In this document: positions 5,969-60,843 of the stretch, one piece after another
How the letters are laid out: the number at the start of each line of letters is the position of its first letter
Position numbering within the stretch: position 1 is the stretch's first letter
DNA from: Granulicella mallensis
GTDB taxonomy: Bacteria > Acidobacteriota > Terriglobia > Terriglobales > Acidobacteriaceae
NCBI RefSeq assembly: GCF_014203225.1
Contig: NZ_JACHIO010000003.1
Coordinates: 124,001 to 188,000, forward strand
Direction of reading: 5' to 3'
DNA length: 64,000 bases
The notes under the pieces: model-generated
What the model was told of the DNA's origin: nothing
Databases searched by the model: none
Seen by the model: the letters and a program-made list of their open reading frames with translations, nothing else
Program-made: the position numbers and the translations under genes

Positions 5969-7030
5969 ATGGTAAGAGTGCAAAAAATCAGGGTCCCGGA
6001 TACGGGGCGTCTGAGTTGGATCGTCATCGACGGGGAGCATATCCCGGTCGATGTAGTGAACGAGTACCTCGTTTATCTCCATCGTCTCGAAAGGTCGCCG
6101 AACACGGTTAGAGCGTATGCGCATCATTTGCAGGCCTACTGGGATTTTCTGCTCGAGCAACAGCATAACTGGCGAGATCTGAAGCTGCCTCAACTTGCGG
6201 AGTTCGTAAGTTGGGTGCGACATACGACACGAGCTGGCGGTGGACATCGTTCCGACGCCACAATCAATTTGATCCTGGCAGCTATCAGCTCGTTCTACGA
6301 ATATCAGGACAGGCTTGGCGTGGAGACGGCGATCAGCCGCTCCCGGCGCTTAGGGGCGAAGAGTCCTTACAAGCCCTTCCTGCACCATATCAGCCGAACA
6401 CAATCGTTGCGACATGCTGTGGTCCGGGTGAAGGCGATCAAGCGCCTGCCACGCGTGTTCTCACCTTCCGAGGTTCAATCTTTACTCGATTCCTGCACAC
6501 GTCTGCGGGATCGATTCCTTCTGTGCCTGCTGCACGAGAGCGGGATGCGGATCGGGCAAGCTCTGGGCCTTCGTCATGCCGACATCCGGTCTTACGATGG
6601 CGCGATCGATATCGTGCCACGCGCAAACAGTAACGGCGCTCTTGCAAAATCTCGCTCGCCGTATGTGGTGCATGTCTCGAAACAGGCGATGGCACTCTAT
6701 GCAGACTACCTGATTCATGAGTATGGAGAGATTTCGCACGACTATGTTTTCGTGAACTGGTGGGGTGGCCAAGTCGGTGCTCCGATGCGGTATGCAACGG
6801 CCATCGATCTGTTCCGCCAACTCTCGAAGAGGACGGGGCTTCGGGCAACGCCGCATATGTTCCGCCACACCCATGCAACCGATCTCCTGCGGGCTGGATG
6901 GGACGCGGCCTATGTACAGCGACGGCTGGGGCACGCGCATATACAAACAACCGTCAGCACCTATGCCCACTTGTCTGCGGAAGACATGGGCGAGATGTTC
7001 GAGCGTTACCAAAAGGAGCGTGAGCGATGA
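5969..7030 (+). CDS. tnpA: Tn554-type transposase A, tyrosine recombinase
   Basis: A tyrosine recombinase of 353 residues that cuts and rejoins the transposon ends. The start is the ATG at 5969, with GGAGG at 5958-5962 six bases ahead; a longer frame from 5936 lacks such a site. An N-terminal SAM-like core-binding domain (about 30-125) contains RSPNTVRAYAHHL. The catalytic part has Arg in GMRIGQ (about residue 194), H-x-x-R in HMFRH (about 296-299), His in LGHAH (about 322) and the nucleophile Tyr in STYAHLS (about 332). All catalytic residues are present, so the enzyme looks active. Its stop overlaps the tnpB start (ATGA), and gene order and size match Tn554 TnpA. Confidence 0.92.
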   Translation: MVRVQKIRVPDTGRLSWIVIDGEHIPVDVVNEYLVYLHRLERSPNTVRAYAHHLQAYWDFLLEQQHNWRDLKLPQLAEFVSWVRHTTRAGGGHRSDATINLILAAISSFYEYQDRLGVETAISRSRRLGAKSPYKPFLHHISRTQSLRHAVVRVKAIKRLPRVFSPSEVQSLLDSCTRLRDRFLLCLLHESGMRIGQALGLRHADIRSYDGAIDIVPRANSNGALAKSRSPYVVHVSKQAMALYADYLIHEYGEISHDYVFVNWWGGQVGAPMRYATAIDLFRQLSKRTGLRATPHMFRHTHATDLLRAGWDAAYVQRRLGHAHIQTTVSTYAHLSAEDMGEMFERYQKERER

Positions 7031-8859
7031 TCACCAATGCAGTCTGGAACCGTGCAACTCAGATCAAGCTTCTCGCTGAACTACAGGGCTTTTGGGCTGA
7101 TGACCTATGGGACATGCACCACAGCCCCGTGAAGGACTTGTCTCCCAGTGCGAGGCAGCGCCGTCTGCGTTTCCGGTGTAAGTCTACGGCGATCAACGGC
7201 GAGCTGAAGTACCTCTGCTGGAAGAAGTTCTCCAGCGGTGAATGGCGGAGCACTCAGGAGATCTCCCGTGTTCATCGGATGATTCACTGGTTGAATAGCA
7301 TGCCAACCTTACCGTCCTCTCTTCTGGAAAAGGACTTCAGTGTTTGGCGGGACCTCTATCGGACTTATCTGACCGAGCTGGGACAATACAAAACGGGCAC
7401 GACGAGTCGCATGGATGTTGAGCAGCGCCCCCGTGTCACAGGCCGGGACAGTAGCTTCGTCAGCACGCTGCGGCAGGCTTGTATCCTACTCAGGCAGGCC
7501 TATGATCTTCGCCCTGATCGCGAGAAAGATATCTGGGATCTGAAACGGATGGGGGTACCTACTAACCTCTCGCAATCAAACGTAAAGCTGAGCTTCCTGG
7601 TGATCAAACAGGCATGGCTTCGGACTGCGGTCAAGTCCTATCTGAGCTACTGTCTGCCGCTCTACTCAGCGAGCACATGCCGAACTCGAGTGCAGTCGAT
7701 GGCATGCTTCTCCAACTTCCTCGCGATGGAGAAACCGCCGGTGACGACAAGGTCGATCACACGCAGATTGCTTCTCGAATATCTTACCTATCTCCAAGGC
7801 AAAGTACGCACGGCGACCAGCAAGAATCACGTACTCACTCTGCGGAACTTCCTTGAGATGGCGCATCGGGAAGGATGGCTCACAATCGGACCAGATCGCA
7901 TGATCTATGACGAAGAGGTGCCCCAGCCAGCGAAACATCAGCCGCGTTATCTGCCCGCGACAGTGCTGGATCAATTGAATTCACACCTTGGAGATCTAAA
8001 ACCGCCCTGGAGGCGCAAAATACTTATCCTCCAGGAGTGCGGGATGCGGATCAGCGAGTTGCTGCAGCTTCCAGTTGATTGCCTCACGCAAGATGCACGG
8101 GGTGTCCACTACCTGCGGTATATGCAAGGGAAGGTGAAACGGGAGAATGCCATCCCCATTTCACTGGAGATCGCCCGCATCATCCTGGAGCAGCAGGCCG
8201 AAGGGCGCAATCGTGACAAGCCTTCGATGTGGCTCTTCCCGAATGAGCGAGGAGGAGTGATCAAGCAGGCCACCTTCGCGCATCGAATCAACCGGCTGGC
8301 CTATGACCACGACATCAGGGATGCGACAGGAAAGTTGTTTCGCTTCCAGTCACACCAGTTCCGTCACACCGTTGGAACGCGCATGATCAATCTTGGCGTA
8401 CCGCACCACATCATCCAACGCTATCTCGGTCACAAGGGCCCGGAGATGACGAGCCGGTACGCCCACATCCACGATGTCACGATGCAGGACAAGTTGTCGG
8501 AGTACTTGAAAGGCACGCTAATCGACGTGACAGGCAAGCCAGTCCCAGAGGACGGGATGAACGACAGCGCCGATCTCCAGTGGTTTACTCGCAGCGTCCT
8601 TGCGCAGGCTCTGACGAACGGCTATTGCGCGATCCCAATCGTCGCCGGTCCCTGTCCACATCCGAACGCCTGCCTCAACTGCGCTCACTTCCGAACGGAC
8701 GCAACCTTCCTCGAAGTGCATCGAGCCGAACTCCACGAGACGGAGCGAGTCATCGCGAAAGCGGATGCGAATGGTTGGGTGCGACAGAGTGAGATGAACG
8801 AGCGAAAACGAACAAGCCTCATCAACATCGTCACAACCCTGGAGGCCAACCATGGTTAG
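7027..8859 (+). CDS. tnpB: Tn554-type transposase B, tyrosine recombinase
   Basis: The second, larger recombinase of the element (610 residues), overlapping tnpA by 4 bp. It has a long N-terminal region (1-200), a core-binding domain (about 200-280) and a catalytic domain with GMRISE (Arg341), HQFRH (His443, Arg446), LGHKG (His469) and Tyr478. The C-terminal tail has CPHPNACLNC, a cysteine pattern seen in Tn554 TnpB proteins that may bind zinc. In Tn554 both TnpA and TnpB are required for transposition. The gene looks intact. Confidence 0.92.
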   Translation: MITNAVWNRATQIKLLAELQGFWADDLWDMHHSPVKDLSPSARQRRLRFRCKSTAINGELKYLCWKKFSSGEWRSTQEISRVHRMIHWLNSMPTLPSSLLEKDFSVWRDLYRTYLTELGQYKTGTTSRMDVEQRPRVTGRDSSFVSTLRQACILLRQAYDLRPDREKDIWDLKRMGVPTNLSQSNVKLSFLVIKQAWLRTAVKSYLSYCLPLYSASTCRTRVQSMACFSNFLAMEKPPVTTRSITRRLLLEYLTYLQGKVRTATSKNHVLTLRNFLEMAHREGWLTIGPDRMIYDEEVPQPAKHQPRYLPATVLDQLNSHLGDLKPPWRRKILILQECGMRISELLQLPVDCLTQDARGVHYLRYMQGKVKRENAIPISLEIARIILEQQAEGRNRDKPSMWLFPNERGGVIKQATFAHRINRLAYDHDIRDATGKLFRFQSHQFRHTVGTRMINLGVPHHIIQRYLGHKGPEMTSRYAHIHDVTMQDKLSEYLKGTLIDVTGKPVPEDGMNDSADLQWFTRSVLAQALTNGYCAIPIVAGPCPHPNACLNCAHFRTDATFLEVHRAELHETERVIAKADANGWVRQSEMNERKRTSLINIVTTLEANHG

Positions 8860-9301
8860 GAATACGGATGGACTAAAGCGCAGTGCCCGGTCTCGCAGCG
8901 AGGATGCGACGCAGCGTGCCACGGCAGCGATCCTGCTGATGCAGGCTGAAGAAGTGGAGATCAACTTCCGCAGCGTCGCCGCGCGTGCGAAAGTATCGAC
9001 GGCCTGGCTCTACGGAACGAAGTCCCTCCGGGACAAGATCATGAAGATTCGTACGACCTCGCCAGCTGCTGCGGGCGATAATCTGCAACATCGGCAGCGG
9101 CTCTCGCACGAACGAGTCGTGGCGACTCTCCGACTCCGCATTCGGACGTTGGAGGAAATCAATCGCGAGCTGAAAGAGCAACTCGAAGCCGCCTACGGCA
9201 GACTTGCGGTTGTACAGACGAAGCTGAGTTCTTGCACCGAACGTCAAAATGATGCGTTAATCACTTGCGATCGATGCTCCGAGGCATTCCGGGGTACGTA
9301 G
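8852..9301 (+). CDS. tnpC: Tn554-type TnpC (DUF6262-like)
   Basis: A basic protein of 149 residues overlapping tnpB by 8 bp. The first ~65 residues contain a predicted DNA-binding turn (VNFRSVAARAKVSTAWLYG-like segment near 40-55). The second half is an amphipathic coiled coil (LRIRTLEEINRELKEQLEAAY region). Tn554 TnpC is a small accessory factor that affects transposition frequency and orientation. The same place and size here support the assignment. Confidence 0.85.
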   Translation: MVRNTDGLKRSARSRSEDATQRATAAILLMQAEEVEINFRSVAARAKVSTAWLYGTKSLRDKIMKIRTTSPAAAGDNLQHRQRLSHERVVATLRLRIRTLEEINRELKEQLEAAYGRLAVVQTKLSSCTERQNDALITCDRCSEAFRGT

Positions 9302-9361
9302 TTGCCGCAAATGCGACTTTTCAGGCCTTTCGATTGGGCCCAGTCGGCCTAAAATGGTGGC

Positions 9362-11482
9362 ATGTCAATCCGGGCCGTGTCTCTCGTTCTCCTTCTCGCC
9401 GCGCCCAACCTCTTCGCCCAGCAGGCTCCTTCGTCCAGCGTGGCAAAGAGTACTAACGCAGGACACCCTGAACAGTCGGTACTGGCAACTGAGCCCGCGT
9501 GTCCGCTTATCAACTCCAACGCGATCACCCATCAATCGGAGACGGAACCGATCCTGGTGGCGTACGACTCTGGGACGATGGGAGCGTTGCGGGCGGCGAA
9601 GTCGGTAACACTGCATGCGGCCCCGGTGCCCATGAATGGGTTGGGAACGGTCGCGGACTTCCCGATGGCGCGTCAAGCCGACGGCACCTGGCTGGCTACG
9701 GTGAAGTTGGCCGGAAAGAGTGTGGGTTCGGGCTACGTGATGTTCGATGTTGAGGACCAGGACCATCACATCGACCGGAACGGCGGCGCGTATTGGGATA
9801 CGGAGCTTTGCTTCACAAATCGCAACATACCAAACAGCGCCTACATGCTGCCGAGCGGCTTTAGCGCCAAGTTATCCAGCTATAACGGGCGCATCGTGGC
9901 GCCAGGATTCCAGCGGGCACCGGACACGGCACGGGCGCTGGCGATTGCGCGAGAGGATTTTACGAAGCACCCGCAGGACTTCGGCGATCTGTTCTCGATA
10001 TGGTTTTTGGAGACAGAGGGCGGCCTGGGCCGTGGCACTGATGCCGAATGGGCGCAGGTAAGTCGGGAACTGGACGAGCAGATCACAAAAAACGGCACGA
10101 CGAATGGGTTTTTCCTGCAAATCCTGGGGTTCGTTGCGCCAGCCCAAGCGCGCATCGATCCGGCAGTGATCGGGAGATTGCGGGCCGCGATCATCGCGTC
10201 GCCGCGGACGATTCAGCCCTCGCGCTGGGAAGGTACGACGCTGAAGCTGATTCCGAAGCCCGCTTATTGGGATGATGCGGTGGCGAAGGAGGTAGCCCTT
10301 TTCCTTTCGGAACTCGACCTGCCTCCCGCGGAGCAGATCAAGGACCCAGAGGCCCGCGGGGATGCGCTGGAGGCTTTCGTCAAGAAGTACGGGAATTGCG
10401 TAGAAAACTGCAACGAGATCGCCCCCGCATTCGGGCTTGGTGTACAGGCATTTGGCGAGGCAGGCGATCTGGATGGCGCGAAGCGACTGGCGGAGGAGTG
10501 GATGGCGTGGGACCCGAAGAATCCCGATCCGCCGGCGGTCCTGGCGCAGACGTATCTAACGGCGAACAAGCGGCTACCGGAAGCGCTGGAACTGGCGAAT
10601 CGCGCGGCAGAACTCTACAAACCATTTGCGGATACCGTCACGCGGCCAGCGAGCGATCACACGATTCGCTCTCAGATGTACTTTGAGGTCGCGCCGTGGG
10701 CAAGTCATAAAGGCAGAGCCGAATTGCTGCGCGGAAAGATCGAGGCGGAGGTGGGCGACTGGGCAGCGGCTGCGAAGGACTTACAGGTAGCCTGGAATGC
10801 GCTGGCGCAGAACCCGGGCATGGTGATGCAATTCATCGAGGCGGCGATCGCCCTGGGCGGTGCTGACGAGCATATAGGCGACCGGGAGGCGGCGCTGAAG
10901 GCGTATCTGAGCGCAGCCAGCGAACCGTATCAGACCGACCCGAAAGCGCACAACGCATACCTGCGTCTGTTCGTGGCTGAAGGCAAGGGCACCGACCAGC
11001 AGGCCGAGGCTTCGCTACTGGCCGCAGTGGAAGAGTCACGCGCAAAAGAGGCCGGGAACTATGTCCCGGTGGAGTTGCATCGGCCGATTCCGAAGTTGCA
11101 ACTGACGGGCCTGGACGGAAAGGCGCTCAGTCTGGAGAATCGCCGACGGCCGGTTGTGGTGGATTTGTGGGCGACGTGGTGCGGTGCGTGCGCAGTGGAA
11201 CTGCCATCGCTGTTGGCGTTTCAGAAAGCGCATCCAGAGGTGGATGTGCTGGCGGTGGATGTGGCCGATAAGCCGGAAGCAGTGCGGCAGTTCTTGATGA
11301 GCAAGAAGCTTACTGGGCTGCATGTTGCATTGACGAAGGCGTTTCCGGAGGGCATGGCTCAGAACTACCCGACTACGCTTGTTATTAGCTCAAAGCATGA
11401 GATCGCGTTCCTGCACGCGAGCATGCCCAATGATATTGGGGCGGAACTCGCGGCGGATCTGTCGGCCTTGAATCCTCAGTAG
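9362..11482 (+). CDS. Secreted TPR/thioredoxin (TlpA-like) protein, transposon cargo
   Basis: 706 residues starting at the ATG at 9362. A signal peptide (residues 1-20, hydrophobic LVLLLAAP, cleavage after LFAQ) sends it out of the cytoplasm. Residues ~30-170 form a beta-rich domain and ~350-560 look like tetratricopeptide helices (GDLDGAKRLAEEW, KRLPEALELANRAAELY). The C-terminal ~130 residues form a TlpA/thioredoxin domain with the redox motif WCGAC (Cys607, Cys610). Such proteins reduce or oxidise disulfides in the periplasm. It follows tnpC by 60 bp, is co-directional and lies inside the element, so it travels with it. I know of no such cargo for Tn554 relatives; the substrate cannot be told. 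Confidence 0.85.
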   Translation: MSIRAVSLVLLLAAPNLFAQQAPSSSVAKSTNAGHPEQSVLATEPACPLINSNAITHQSETEPILVAYDSGTMGALRAAKSVTLHAAPVPMNGLGTVADFPMARQADGTWLATVKLAGKSVGSGYVMFDVEDQDHHIDRNGGAYWDTELCFTNRNIPNSAYMLPSGFSAKLSSYNGRIVAPGFQRAPDTARALAIAREDFTKHPQDFGDLFSIWFLETEGGLGRGTDAEWAQVSRELDEQITKNGTTNGFFLQILGFVAPAQARIDPAVIGRLRAAIIASPRTIQPSRWEGTTLKLIPKPAYWDDAVAKEVALFLSELDLPPAEQIKDPEARGDALEAFVKKYGNCVENCNEIAPAFGLGVQAFGEAGDLDGAKRLAEEWMAWDPKNPDPPAVLAQTYLTANKRLPEALELANRAAELYKPFADTVTRPASDHTIRSQMYFEVAPWASHKGRAELLRGKIEAEVGDWAAAAKDLQVAWNALAQNPGMVMQFIEAAIALGGADEHIGDREAALKAYLSAASEPYQTDPKAHNAYLRLFVAEGKGTDQQAEASLLAAVEESRAKEAGNYVPVELHRPIPKLQLTGLDGKALSLENRRRPVVVDLWATWCGACAVELPSLLAFQKAHPEVDVLAVDVADKPEAVRQFLMSKKLTGLHVALTKAFPEGMAQNYPTTLVISSKHEIAFLHASMPNDIGAELAADLSALNPQ

Positions 11483-56438: not shown

Positions 56439-58502
56439 TCAGACGCGCATCGGTTCATCCGCTGCGATTGGCACATCTTCTTCGTGGTCGTCACTGGGAC
56501 TGTCTGGATCGAGTTGGCTCGCCTCGATCTCTTCCTCGGTTGGCTGCTCGGACTCCTCACCCTCGGACACCTCTGCCTCTTCGGTGGCCTGAGAGGATGT
56601 AGACAAATCGGCCTCTAGGTCGATGCTCGGAGCGGCTGGGGCCGGAGCCTTTGGAACAAGAGTCTTCGGGTCGAATGGAAGTTCGTCATCTTCTACCTTG
56701 CGCGGCACGAATCCCGGCGTGGTTTGAGCAACGTCCATGTACTCGAAATGGAAGCGGGCGACATTGTTGCCCAGCTTCAGGAACGCATGGCGATTTTCCA
56801 GACCGGAGATTTCAGAGTCCATGACCAAAGGCTCGACCTGGCGATCTATGGTGAAGTTCTTGCCGGAACGAGAACCGTCGAAATGCGTCTCCTTCATCCG
56901 TTCGATCTCAATTTTGCCGATGGCGTTCGATACCCACTCCGCTGCTTTTGGCTCTGTCGTTTTCAGAAATATTTTGGTCGCGGGCTGCGAAAGCATGACC
57001 TCGGCCAAATGTCCGTAGATGACTTCCAACTGCGCCTTCCCCTGAAATCCGAGCACGAGCGGGTTCTTCGATTTCCGGTTCTCAGTGATCGCGGTGTGGA
57101 GCTGCGGGAGCCGCTGCAGACTGGCGAGCTCGTCGAGAACAAACCAGACAGGGGTCTGGTTCTCCTGCGGCGCGGTGAGCAGACGCATGACGAGCAAGTC
57201 GATCCAGAGACTATGCAGTGGACGCAGAGCCTCGCGCTCGGTGGCGCTGGATGTGATGAAGATCCAGCCCTTCCGTTCGACGGCCCATTCCGTGGCGCTC
57301 CACGTTTTGTTCTTTGCCTGCACCTTGGTGGGCAGCATACGAAGGCTGTCTGCAACAAGACCTAACGAAGCCAGAACGCCATTCCGCTGCTGCTGCGCTC
57401 CTTTCGCAATCATCGCCTCCATCTCGGTGCCATGTACTCGCTTATCAATCTCGGCCGGGTTGGAAAGCCACTGAACAAGCTGCTGCGGATTCGGTCCGTA
57501 GGTCAGGAGATGGGCGAATATCTTCTGCGGCGTTTCCGTGAAAAATTCACCTTTCTTGTCGCTTGTCGGCTGGTACAGCGACGCGGCGATTGCCTTCGCC
57601 TCCGCCTTCCGGCGTAGCTCCTCGGACGGTCCCCAATAGGGGCAACGCTCGTCCAATGGATTGAGGACCAGGTCGCCGCGCCTCTCGTCATAGAACCGCT
57701 GAATGAACTCACACGCTGGATCGTAGACGATCGCCGAATGACCCCGGCTTTGTATCTGCCGGAGGATTTGCATAATGAGCGTCGTTTTGCCCGCTCCGGT
57801 ATCTCCCATCAGTTCGATATGCTGCGCCTCCGCCTGCAAAGGAATTCGCATCATGTCCTTGGCTTCAGTCGTGACGAAACCAACCCCATCGCCAGCGACG
57901 GTCTTGTTAAACTCCCTCGGAGTGAGGAGTACCGGACCTTTGAGACGCCGGCCATACTTCAATTCCTTGCGGCGGCGAATGTCCTTACGGATTGAGAAAG
58001 GCAGTTGGACAAGCAGAGAAACCAGTCCGAAAATGAGCGGCCACTCGTAGATGTCCCTGAGCTGATCCCCGGCATAAACCGCGTTCCGCAGATAGGTGTG
58101 CAAGCGACTGTCGATGTACTTCTGTTCGGTGCCGCGATAGAGCACGTCAAGCCCTCGGCGCTGCGCATCGCTAGAGAGTGCGAGTGGGATTTGCTTTCCC
58201 TGCGAGGCCAAAGTCGTACCCACCTGCACGTCTGACTCCGACGCGATTTCCGCTCCGGCGCTGACGCCTGCGGCATAGAGGAGTTGGTAGGGATGCGTCT
58301 TGTTGAACGCCCCTCCCACAGCACTCCGTACATAAATCGGCGTGTAGAACTGCTGCAGCGGCGTTTGGCCGTAGCTGAACCGGAGGTACAGAAATAGCCC
58401 GGTGAACACGAATGCGAGGAAGACCGCGCCGTAGGAATAGATTGGGCTGTGTGGCGGGAAGATGATCGTTTCTTTGCGGCCCCATTGTGTCGTCGGCATC
58501 AT
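56439..58502 (-). CDS. traD: Type IV coupling protein (TrwB/TraD/VirD4-like)
   Basis: 687 residues with two membrane regions (about 22-42 and 155-170) and a hexameric ATPase domain. Walker A is GDTGAGKTTL (233-242), Walker B VWFVLDELASLQRLPQ, and EPKAAEWVSNAIGKIE is T4CP-typical. The last ~70 residues are very acidic. It delivers the relaxase-DNA complex to the type IV channel. ATG at 58502 (ATGA) or 58499 overlaps the RHH gene stop. The order RHH-T4CP-relaxase copies trwA-trwB-trwC of R388. Confidence 0.94.
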   Translation of the reverse strand: MMPTTQWGRKETIIFPPHSPIYSYGAVFLAFVFTGLFLYLRFSYGQTPLQQFYTPIYVRSAVGGAFNKTHPYQLLYAAGVSAGAEIASESDVQVGTTLASQGKQIPLALSSDAQRRGLDVLYRGTEQKYIDSRLHTYLRNAVYAGDQLRDIYEWPLIFGLVSLLVQLPFSIRKDIRRRKELKYGRRLKGPVLLTPREFNKTVAGDGVGFVTTEAKDMMRIPLQAEAQHIELMGDTGAGKTTLIMQILRQIQSRGHSAIVYDPACEFIQRFYDERRGDLVLNPLDERCPYWGPSEELRRKAEAKAIAASLYQPTSDKKGEFFTETPQKIFAHLLTYGPNPQQLVQWLSNPAEIDKRVHGTEMEAMIAKGAQQQRNGVLASLGLVADSLRMLPTKVQAKNKTWSATEWAVERKGWIFITSSATEREALRPLHSLWIDLLVMRLLTAPQENQTPVWFVLDELASLQRLPQLHTAITENRKSKNPLVLGFQGKAQLEVIYGHLAEVMLSQPATKIFLKTTEPKAAEWVSNAIGKIEIERMKETHFDGSRSGKNFTIDRQVEPLVMDSEISGLENRHAFLKLGNNVARFHFEYMDVAQTTPGFVPRKVEDDELPFDPKTLVPKAPAPAAPSIDLEADLSTSSQATEEAEVSEGEESEQPTEEEIEASQLDPDSPSDDHEEDVPIAADEPMRV

Positions 58503-58876
58503 GCACGCTCCAGGTCTTGCATTGCATCGGTAGCCACTTCGCGTTTCCGTTTCTTCACTTCGGCAAGCATGTTGTCGAAGGCTTCCGGGGTCAATTTCTG
58601 GCCCGTCGCGAGTGGCCGAAAGAGATTGGTCAGCATCAATCGAATGCCCATGATCTCAGTGAGTTCCGTGCTCGCTTCGACCGAACCTGCGTCTCGCGCA
58701 AGCTCATCGAGAATGAGCCTGCGGATGAGTTCTCCACGCTGCAAACCGCGTGATCGTGCCAGCCGCTCCACGTTCTCAACTTCGCGCGGGTTCAATTTGG
58801 TCGTAACTCCCAACAGCCGATAGTTGGCTCGCTTCTCGGCGTTGGTCGTGATTTGCATGTCATCTGTGAGCTTCAT
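58499..58876 (-). CDS. Ribbon-helix-helix relaxosome protein (TrwA-like)
   Basis: 125 residues; AGGAG six bases ahead of the ATG at 58876. The N-terminal part has a beta strand and helix-turn-helix (TTKLNPREVENVERLARSRG, then QRGELIRRLILDEL) fitting a ribbon-helix-helix fold. The rest is helical and probably multimerises. In R388 TrwA binds oriT, stimulates the relaxase and coupling protein and represses the trwABC operon. Identical order and the GTGTCC array just upstream support that role here. Confidence 0.82.
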   Translation of the reverse strand: MKLTDDMQITTNAEKRANYRLLGVTTKLNPREVENVERLARSRGLQRGELIRRLILDELARDAGSVEASTELTEIMGIRLMLTNLFRPLATGQKLTPEAFDNMLAEVKKRKREVATDAMQDLERA

Positions 58877-58894
58877 ACTCGGCTCCTGAAAGCG

Positions 58895-59018
58895 GTGTCC
58901 TTAGGTGTCCCTGAGTGTCCTCAAGGACACCTGACACCCGTAAGTCTCTGCATTTGCAACTTGTGTCTGAGGCGGTTCCAAGTGTCCCTGACACGACCCT
59001 CGGAGGGGTGGAGTGTCA
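58895..59018. promoter_or_regulatory. GTGTCC repeat array: candidate operator/oriT
   Basis: GTGTCC occurs at 58895, 58905 and 58915 (exact 10 bp spacing), then inverted as GGACAC at 58925, so 58915-58930 is a perfect GTGTCC-TCAA-GGACAC palindrome. Further half-sites are GACAC at 58933, GTGTCC at 58982, GACAC at 58990 and GTGTCA at 59013. The array fills the gap ahead of the trwA-like gene. One-turn spacing is what RHH tetramers bind. The region may be its operator and/or oriT. A GGTGC/GCACC hairpin (59028-59042) flanks it. Confidence 0.65.
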
Positions 59019-59061
59019 CAATTCTTCCGGTGCGAAGCACCGTGCCTGCACCGGAACGAAT

Positions 59062-59388
59062 TTATGCGCGAGCTGCAACACTGCTGGCACCCTCACTCTT
59101 CGGCGTTGGCATGGCGGCAACCGGCTTCTTGGCACCCCCGGATGGCGTCACCGGTTGCACTGCCTTCCGGATACGCAAAGTCGCGGTCACCTTGGACGCC
59201 TCCGGAGTCTTTTGGAAATCCCGAAATCCGGGATCTTTGCCGAAGACGTATTGAAGCGCCTTCTCTACGACATCGTCTGCGGTGGCCTGGATGTAAGCGG
59301 CATATTGATCGACTTGCATTGCTGTCGATTCAGATAGCCGAATCGAAGCGCTGATCTGTTTGGTTTGGGTGACTTCAAGCAGTGGCAT
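59062..59388 (-). CDS. Second ribbon-helix-helix-like plasmid protein
   Basis: 108 residues from the ATG at 59388; AAAGG nine bases ahead decides against the ATG at 59397. The start (EVTQTKQISASIRLSEST) and following helix (AMQVDQYAAYIQATADDVVEKAL) fit a short RHH DNA-binding unit. The tail is Ala/Pro/Lys-rich. It overlaps the virB11 stop by 14 bp and is therefore in the same operon. It may be a second relaxosome or regulatory factor; the family is uncertain. Confidence 0.7.
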   Translation of the reverse strand: MPLLEVTQTKQISASIRLSESTAMQVDQYAAYIQATADDVVEKALQYVFGKDPGFRDFQKTPEASKVTATLRIRKAVQPVTPSGGAKKPVAAMPTPKSEGASSVAARA

Positions 59389-60397
59389 TGTGGGCATCCT
59401 TTCGAGATGATTCAGGGGTAAGGTTGTGAGCCGATTTCGGCGAGCAATCGGCCCGATAGAGTGGGGTGGTTTCAAAGCGTTGAAGCCGACGATCGTAGGC
59501 TTCAATCTCAAGAACTTCGCTGATGCGACGGCATCCCGGTTGGCGCTCCACATGGACAACGAGATTGACGGCCTCGGCGATCTCTGCTTCAACGTCAGAA
59601 ATGGTGGCTTGTGCGTGACTCCGCATCACCAAGTTGGCGAATCTCCGTAGGGCCTTCTCGGCGGAGTTCGCATGAATAGTCGCCAGCGATCCGCCATGCC
59701 CTGTATTCAAGGAATCGAGCAGCGTACGCGCCTCGGCTCCGCGAACCTCTCCCAGGATGATGCGATCCGGTCTCCATCGGAGAGCGGACTTCAAGAGGTC
59801 GTCGAACGTGACGGCCGATTTGAAGGTATCGGTCTGGCATTCCACAGCCAGTAGGTTCGGCTTTTGGATACGAAGCTCAGACGTATCCTCGATCACGACA
59901 ACGCGCTCATGCTCTGGGATTGCGTTCGCGAGGATGTTGAGCAGTGTTGTCTTCCCGGTTCCGGTTCCGCCACTAATGAGCAGCGTCTTTCCGCTGCGAA
60001 TCTGCTCTTCCAAGAGATCGGCGAGAGAGCGCGTCAGCGCGCCGCGAGCAATCAGGTCTTCAGCCGTGAACTTCCGGCTGGTGAACTTCCTTATCGTCAC
60101 GGCGGGCGAAGGCCGCACGACGGGCGGAATGACAGCCGCTAAGCGGCTTCCATCGGGAAGCTGCGCGTGCAGGACCGGATTGTCTTCGTCCAACCGCTTG
60201 CCGAGCTTGTTGGCGACCACTTCGAGGCCGGTGCGGAGCTTGCCGGCGTCGAAGGAAATGCTCTCTTCCCTCCGCACAATACCGTCTCGCTCGTACCACC
60301 ACGAAGCGTCGGGATTGCCCATAATCTCGCTGATACTGTCATCCAGTAGAAGCGGCTCGATGGGGCGAAGGAACGGAAGGATTAGCTCGAAACTCAT
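59375..60397 (-). CDS. trbB: VirB11/TrbB-type secretion ATPase
   Basis: 340 residues. N-terminal domain (ISEIMGNPDASWWYERDG, DGSRLAAVIPPVV) and a RecA-like C-terminal domain with Walker A GGTGTGKTT (143-151), Asp box EDTSELRI and GEVRGAEARTLLDSLNTGHGG. It is a hexameric ATPase at the base of the type IV channel, needed for pilus assembly and substrate transfer. The sequence is closer to TrbB than to Agrobacterium VirB11. It lies 62 bp behind an SSB gene. Confidence 0.93.
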   Translation of the reverse strand: MSFELILPFLRPIEPLLLDDSISEIMGNPDASWWYERDGIVRREESISFDAGKLRTGLEVVANKLGKRLDEDNPVLHAQLPDGSRLAAVIPPVVRPSPAVTIRKFTSRKFTAEDLIARGALTRSLADLLEEQIRSGKTLLISGGTGTGKTTLLNILANAIPEHERVVVIEDTSELRIQKPNLLAVECQTDTFKSAVTFDDLLKSALRWRPDRIILGEVRGAEARTLLDSLNTGHGGSLATIHANSAEKALRRFANLVMRSHAQATISDVEAEIAEAVNLVVHVERQPGCRRISEVLEIEAYDRRLQRFETTPLYRADCSPKSAHNLTPESSRKDAHNATA

Positions 60398-60459: not shown

Positions 60460-60843
60460 CTACGCGGCCACGTCCTCTGCAGGGCTGTCGTCGTGATCTT
60501 CCGCTTCCACGGCGGCCTTCTCAGCGCGGTCAAGCTTCAGGATCGAATCGACCTTGATTTCCCAGATGCGCTGCTTGCTGTCCGTCTTCTTGCTGTCATA
60601 CTCCCGGCTGCGAAGCTCACCCTCAACCTGGAGATGTGCGCCCTTCTTGAGGGTCTTGGCGAAGTCCGAAAGCTTCCCGAAAACCACGCAACGGTGCCAC
60701 TCGGTATGCGAGATGTACTTGCCGTCTTTCTTGTAGGAGGACTGGGTTGCCAGCGAGAGAATTGTGAAGCTGCGGTTGTTGTTGGCACGAACTTCTGCGT
60801 CACTGCCGAGGAAGCCGATGAGGTTTACTTTGTTCTGGTACAC
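60460..60843 (-). CDS. ssb: Single-stranded DNA-binding protein
   Basis: 127 residues with one OB fold (NKVNLIGFLGSDAEVRANNN, HTEWHRCVVFGKLSDFAKTL, GAHLQVEGELRSREY). The C-terminus is acidic but ends DVAA, lacking the DDxPF tip that recruits host repair proteins. Plasmid SSBs protect the entering strand in the new host. It is placed inside the transfer operon between virB8 and virB11. Confidence 0.9.
   Translation of the reverse strand: MYQNKVNLIGFLGSDAEVRANNNRSFTILSLATQSSYKKDGKYISHTEWHRCVVFGKLSDFAKTLKKGAHLQVEGELRSREYDSKKTDSKQRIWEIKVDSILKLDRAEKAAVEAEDHDDSPAEDVAA

Follow-up and report, generated by a model that had tools for sequence, protein, structure and literature searches.

Organization of the locus

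The window, by which we mean the whole stretch of 64,000 nucleotides that was analysed, contains a 185-bp gap (58877-59061) flanked by two minus-strand genes. Downstream on the minus strand lie the genes for RHH1, a coupling protein and a relaxase-helicase (Table 1). An earlier, sequence-only reading had described a repeat array filling the gap before the RHH gene of a trwABC-like module, and an RHH-TrwB-TrwC operon of the MOBF type does adjoin it. Upstream, the order is RHH2, a TrbB/VirB11-type ATPase, a single-strand DNA-binding protein (SSB), VirB8 and TrbL; VirB10-, VirB9- and VirB4-like open reading frames, named by eye, lie further along the same contig. Two tyrosine recombinase genes (window positions 6455-8472), possibly an integration module, are situated about 45 kb from the relaxase gene on this contig of 406 kb.

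The relaxase passes the curated TrwC/MobF domain cut-off (NF041492, 226 bits; cut-off 100), and it matches the TrwC structure 1omh (E 1.7e-39) as well as TraI structures. Residues Y16 and Y28, which are predicted to be the catalytic tyrosines, and the HxH metal motif in LHTHAV align with TraI by eye. At E <=1e-80, the relaxase was matched in 18 of 28 genomes of the genus and in 36 of 396 genomes of the phylum, the window's own genome being counted in both.

The two small proteins beside the gap are more difficult to classify. The RHH_1 score of RHH1 lies just below the Pfam cut-off of 20.5 bits, and the helices of its model fit. A comparison of RHH1 with PDB sequences gave no relative (two hits at E 0.11 were taken as chance), and a fold search with the model gave nothing significant (best E 1.7). 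In viral contigs, eight stretches fit a pattern for RHH1, none of which is a relative. RHH2 is possibly also a ribbon-helix-helix protein; it matched no family significantly, and its model has helices, with a best fold-search E of 0.56, which is not significant. RHH2 directly precedes the core described below in nearly all modules, and its variation is unlike that of RHH1.

Table 1. Features at and around the gap, in window coordinates
Feature	Position	Strand	Evidence or remark
MOBF relaxase-helicase, TrwC/TraI-like, 1045 aa	53293..56430	-	PF08751, 286.5 bits
TrwB/TraD-like coupling protein	56439..58502	-	PF10412, 271.6 bits
RHH1, TrwA-like, 125 aa	58499..58876	-	Pfam RHH_1, 20.3 bits
RHH1 N-terminal half, approximately residues 1-48	58733-58876	-	Varies with operators; C-terminal half conserved
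Operator block 2, GTGTCC x3 (10-bp spacing) and inverted GGACAC	58895..58930	.	Predicted binding
ACTTA element, between both operator blocks	58941..58945	-	Exact ACTTA counts across loci
Operator block 1, GTGTCCCTGACAC	58982..58994	.	Repeated word; predicted binding
Hairpin 2, CCCT-CGG-AGGG, 5' of predicted nick	58997..59007	+	96.7% of cells pair
Core AGGGGTGGAGTGTC, predicted transferred strand	59004..59017	+	42/42 syntenic gaps; R388 rules
Hairpin 1, CGGTGC-GAA-GCACCG, GNA loop, 10 nt 3' of predicted nick	59028..59042	+	99.6% of cells pair
RHH2, small conserved protein	59062..59397	-	Conserved beside core
TrbB/VirB11-type ATPase	59375..60397	-	PF00437, 157 bits
SSB, predicted leading side	60460..60843	-	PF00436, 71.4 bits

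Two distinct parts of the gap

The hexamer GTGTCC occurs at 58895, 58905 and 58915, i.e., at a spacing of exactly 10 bp, and again at 58982; an inverted copy, GGACAC, lies at 58925. The evenly spaced triple, which had been pointed out previously, stands up to controls: when the gap was shuffled 2000 times with dinucleotides preserved, a constant-spacing 6-mer triple arose in 0 shuffles, and a 6-mer with as many copies as GTGTCC (five, both strands) arose in 4. Among 1277 segments of 185 bp, taken at a step of 50 over the 64 kb, the GTGTCC count of five was reached once and a constant-spacing triple was found three times, in each case in a segment that overlaps the array. Two details of the sequence-only reading have to be corrected. 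The perfect palindrome that it listed does not exist at a length of 8 bp or more in the gap; what is present instead is GTGTCC-TCAA-GGACAC (58915-58930), with 6-bp arms and a 4-bp spacer. Additionally, the GTGTC at 59013 is better left out of the RHH half-sites, because it belongs to a conserved core that is common to relatives with quite different operator words.

On comparison with relatives, the gap splits into a conserved, nic-like core and a variable operator part. The original proposal of an oriT or a TrwA-like operator is supported in silico in both of its halves, which concern separate parts of the gap, and the assignment of the GTGTCC array to the variable, operator part is likewise supported. 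The comparison set consists of 60 fetched loci, the second module of the window's own genome (L007), and the window. Within it, we delimited 42 gaps, the window's included, by matches to RHH2 and RHH1, i.e., independently of the core motif. All 42 contain the core pattern [GT]ACA[ACT]T[TC][CG]A[TC]CCCT, and 30 of the 42 contain its strict form with AGGG. A further six loci without an RHH1 match also have the core, for a total of 48 aligned cores. On the plus strand, the layout is CCCT-nnn-AGGG-RTGGAGTGTC (58997-59017), followed by 10 nt and then by a hairpin with a GNA loop (59028-59042). A purine directly follows RTGGAGTGTC in 45 of the 48 aligned cores. We predict that the nick, which had been expected somewhere near the repeats, falls between 59017 and 59018 on the plus strand, give or take 1-2 nt; the core has an R388-like orientation and distance to the RHH gene.

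Distribution of the core

In the window's own genome, the exact core pattern occurs twice, both times before an RHH-TrwB-TrwC module. The second module (positions 8915-9453 of locus L007, on contig C13) has the same kind of core and operators made of GCTCCC words, and the N-terminal half of its RHH1 differs from that of the window. With at most one mismatch, the core is found at 30 places in the 28 genomes of the genus, versus 3 for a reversed control. Of these, 17 are exact matches, 16 of which adjoin homologues of RHH1, RHH2 or TrwB: 12 lie in fetched modules and 4 on contigs with RHH2 and TrwB homologues. The remaining exact match (L101, 9368-9904) has a core and an RHH1 homologue, with no TrwB or TrwC within 18 kb on a large contig, and it is perhaps a mobilisable element or a remnant. 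Among the 13 one-mismatch places, 8 are in fetched modules and 1 is a few kb from a truncated relaxase, while at L103 and L104 tblastn found no module gene; another two (G003:C1 and G014:C203) lie outside the fetched set.

A scan of public genomes returned at least 117 stretches with the core, and among the matches listed 113 carry acidobacterial names. Together with one viral contig, the matches listed give 118 core places: 101 are beside RHH1, 6 are beside RHH2 only and 11 are beside neither. Three of the 11 (L117, L194 and L196) run out of DNA within 205 bp. By eye, and among the matches listed, six places (L113, L117, L131, L133, L162 and L194) have common operators of a GGTAACC type, and at L113 an RHH-like open reading frame starts only 844 nt downstream, after an unrelated one. 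The core also sits between the corresponding genes on pACIX903, a circular plasmid of Granulicella tundricola that is typed as conjugative.

Apart from the window, the comparison set has 61 loci, and 14 of these lack the core motif (L055, L056, L064 and L086-L096). By eye, L086 does have a core, with one base outside the motif, and L064 matches only part of TrwB. The other 12 (L055, L056 and L087-L096) are more distant MOBF loci, whose relaxases are 48-55% identical; the 6 kb fetched shows no core, and another oriT may serve them.

Operator words differ among relatives

Between the core and the RHH1 start, loci have repeated words of their own, which in most relatives are words other than GTGTCC. 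We analysed this region in 36 non-redundant loci (the 42 minus 6 that are near-identical). Only the window and L057 carry GTGTCC as a repeated word. The top word exceeds shuffled sequences (at 0.05) in 26 of the 36 and does not in 10. Direct 6-mer repeats are most frequent at lags of 47 (81 repeats), 10 (31), 21 (30), 57 (20) and 37 (15), where shuffles give 0.64. A repeat at a lag of 37, 46-48 or 57-58 is present in 29 of the 36 loci and missing from 7. The operators commonly form two blocks about 47 bp apart, or one turn more or less. An exact ACTTA is located at an offset of 51-53 from the core in 12 of the 36 loci and at 42 in 2; we use only these exact counts, because a search with a nine-letter motif mixed the ACTTA element with operator words.

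Operators vary with the N-terminal half of RHH1

In the window's group of five loci, identity is 0.88-0.94 in the core, falls to 0.36-0.68 over the operators and the first approximately 48 codons of RHH1, and is 0.70-0.94 in the remainder of RHH1. Three loci that form a second group have a similar, less even dip, to 0.51-0.81. Among 54 pairs of loci whose relaxase N-termini are at least 90% identical, the median identity of RHH1 is 0.87 in the C-terminal half versus 0.40 in the N-terminal half, and identity is below 0.5 in 37 pairs for the N-terminal half and in 8 for the C-terminal half.

Operator similarity has a partial correlation of 0.156 with similarity of the N-terminal half (1 of 2000 permutations as high), of 0.094 with that of the C-terminal half (39 of 2000) and of 0.028 with that of the relaxase (565 of 2000); all three correlations are weak. 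In the comparisons of pairs, it should be noted that the counts are not independent, because pairs of loci share history. Where C-terminal halves are alike, the median operator similarity in the first set is 0.52 for pairs with like N-terminal halves (n=14) versus 0.07 for pairs with unlike ones (n=20). In a second set of 84 further loci among the matches listed, the medians are 0.46 (46 pairs) versus 0.07 (44 pairs). The second set was obtained by dropping 34 of the 118 listed places (17 had no RHH1 hit, 9 were identical to first-set loci, 6 had no clean open reading frame and 2 were duplicates), and it may still include first-set loci with another start codon. Operator type follows the N-terminal half of RHH1 more than it follows the rest of the module.

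It might be that the operators and the N-terminal half simply diverged together by fast point mutation, with no exchange of a cassette. Neighbouring DNA can diverge together, and, in a comparable case, the authors of the SmpO study favour mutation for the protein (PMC8136818). Moreover, an exchange between L061 and L046, suggested by their words, found no support in a comparison at the DNA level. However, pairs with unlike C-terminal halves and like N-terminal halves reach a median operator similarity of 0.22 in the first set (7 pairs, 2 of them near the baseline) and again in the second (116 pairs among the matches listed), against a baseline of 0.05-0.06. Point mutation also fits poorly with L057 and L058, which are 0.99 identical in the relaxase N-terminus, 1.00 in the C-terminal half of RHH1 and 0.39 in its N-terminal half. 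Finally, L068 is a clear mosaic, whose closest relative changes at the core and again inside RHH1: to L075 and L080 its identity is 0.84-0.88 in the initial 100 nt counted from the core and 0.52-0.72 in the N-terminal half, versus 0.34-0.58 for the greater part of RHH2 and 0.40-0.48 for the C-terminal half, and L066 or L072 is the better match for its RHH2 and C-terminal half. Because only this one mosaic is clear at the DNA level, joint point mutation keeps some weight, although we consider it unlikely.

As to how a cassette might move, we can offer only a tentative idea that we think has a rather low chance of being correct: the operators and the N-terminal half of RHH1 would be exchanged as a block with one crossover at the nic core, possibly through relaxase-mediated recombination from nic to nic. 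If true, elements with one relaxase type would retain many oriT identities, each insulated from the others, even inside a single cell, as implied by the two modules of the window's own genome, whose cores are of the same kind and whose operators differ.

Hairpins and the predicted strand of the nick

Hairpin 1 is supported by covariation. Both sides change in four of its six pairs (45 distinct sequences), although few clades account for these compensatory changes (for each pair, 3 or 6 sequences). Its loop is GNA in 46 of 48 aligned cores and ANA in 2, and the closing C-G is invariant. The window's hairpin is the sole exact copy in the 64 kb. Among the matches listed, 86 of 117 places with enough DNA, some of them previously seen loci, have, at exactly the expected offset, six pairs and a GNA loop. 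An exact core with neither a module nor hairpin 1 is seen in L173 and in the viral contig (L224). For hairpin 2 we observed no compensatory change, and the same is true of an outer helix (ACAC with GTGT), in which 93.3% of cells pair.

Hairpin 1 is stronger and better conserved than hairpin 2 and lies a constant 10 nt from GACACT, and both strands fold. These properties would suit an oriT in which the minus strand is nicked, with hairpin 1 as the relaxase hairpin, a nick about 9 nt away from it, and RHH1-TrwB-TrwC entering the recipient first. However, the stretch from hairpin 1 to such a nick is less conserved than its 14-nt plus-strand equivalent, at approximately 1.25 versus 1.84 bits per column, where both values are averages and the motif fixed part of the 1.84-bit columns. 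R388 is also oriented the other way relative to its RHH gene. We regard a nick in the minus strand as unlikely, though as a serious alternative.

It is very unlikely that the gap is solely the control region of an autoregulated operon, with the oriT located elsewhere. The GTGTCC array by itself does resemble a repressor site, directly before RHH1, but the core persists in loci with other operator words, and its position and strand are like those of R388. Least plausible of all is that hairpin 1, a stable structure downstream of RHH2, serves the trb operon upstream as a terminator or RNA element, given that the gap has no terminator-like site (a T-run after a hairpin), that a search of Rfam up to E 1 gave no match, that the spacing between hairpin 1 and core is constant, and that the GNA loop is of the DNA-hairpin type on the other strand.

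Proposed function

We consider it highly probable that the gap is the oriT of a MOBF conjugative module combined with the control region of RHH-TrwB-TrwC, in which the operators and the N-terminal half of RHH1 constitute an exchangeable cassette. Comparison of sequences carries this proposal, through the core, the hairpin covariation, the linkage of operators with the N-terminal half and the one clear mosaic. According to the proposal, the relaxase would bind hairpin 2 and RTGGAGTGTC on the plus strand and nick at approximately 59017/59018. Transfer of the strand would then begin, as in R388, from the RHH2/TrbB/SSB side and end with the relaxase operon, and hairpin 1, whose structure is conserved, would form once the strand is single. 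RHH1 would bind the GTGTCC blocks and thereby mark its own oriT for its relaxosome, and it would repress its own operon, both by analogy with TrwA. Across the family, the operators and the N-terminal half co-vary as a single cassette would, and the core and, in most cases, the C-terminal half are kept. The C-terminal half might contact the relaxase or the coupling protein.

Several observations count against this explanation. RHH1 scores just below the Pfam cut-off and has no PDB sequence relative and no significant fold match, a scan of the gap for sigma-70 promoters found none (a TTGACA-like string is present in many cores), and hairpin 2 lacks compensatory changes. The loci without a word above shuffles (10/36) or without a repeat at a common lag (7/36), and the 12 loci with more distant relaxases and no core in the 6 kb fetched, must be weighed in the same way.

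The gap gives conjugative elements of Acidobacteriaceae a specific candidate oriT that can be put to the test, and its relatives supply many natural pairs of RHH protein and operator next to a single conserved nic core. Such a set could be used to distinguish cassette exchange from point mutation in the switching of relaxosome specificity, and it allows a search for a recognition code of RHH proteins.

Comparison with known systems

An oriT combined with a TrwA-like operator is already known as a kind. In R388 (IncW, MOBF), the order oriT-RHH-TrwB-TrwC is as in the window, whose relaxase is related to TrwC, and the nic sequence lies opposite to the strand of the RHH gene with its hairpin on the RHH side. 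The window has this MOBF layout of a hairpin, then a conserved nic stretch, on the strand opposite to the RHH gene. The distance from the start of the RHH gene is 156 nt for the R388 nic (with the CDS read as trwA) versus 141 nt for the core. TrwA is reported to bind oriT and to repress trwABC (PMC3264647). In the mutagenesis of R388 nic, as described, nucleotides 12-25 were essential in full libraries with the loop free, and a purine was required after the nick (PMC4176350); the core's 14 conserved nucleotides and the purine that follows them fit these rules. The letters themselves do not match: R388 nic (GGTGCGTATTGTCT) and the core agree only in the terminal TGTC and the following purine. 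Unlike R388, the window has different hairpin letters, an additional GNA hairpin 3' of the predicted nick, operators that vary between relatives, and TrbB, RHH2 and SSB on the leading side, where R388 has stb genes. SSB genes have been reported in leading regions (PMC11541004), and the window's SSB gene, on the predicted leading side, agrees with this.

DNA hairpins of the type d(GCGNAGC) have a GNA loop closed by C-G, as does hairpin 1 on the predicted transferred strand, and DNA in which such loops cap G-C stems has been called extraordinarily stable (PMC4686876). These mini-hairpins, however, are described there as oligonucleotides, and a role beside a nic site is our own suggestion for hairpin 1. 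For the division of RHH1 into two halves, the likeness is to PcfF of pCF10, whose N-terminal RHH part is reported to bind oriT and whose C-terminal stalk is reported to contact the relaxase (PMC6514445), as in the split that we propose. PcfF belongs to a Gram-positive plasmid, and we liken it to RHH1 by description.

The nearest known case is the oriT/SmpO system of the pWBG749 family in Staphylococcus, from which RHH-based switching of specificity is known. There, too, an RHH accessory protein has sites that are particular to each locus and are arranged as two blocks next to a conserved core, and the N-terminal residues of SmpO are reported to set specificity (PMC8136818). The relaxase family and the phylum are different, and the blocks are 65-67 bp apart, versus about 47 bp here. 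As reported, its authors saw no compelling evidence for the replacement of smpO by recombination, and for the protein the study leaned to mutation as the source of switching (PMC8136818). A search of open-access literature by title gave no earlier oriT for conjugative elements of Acidobacteriaceae, and, measured against that literature, cassette-like exchange in MOBF modules of this family would be new.
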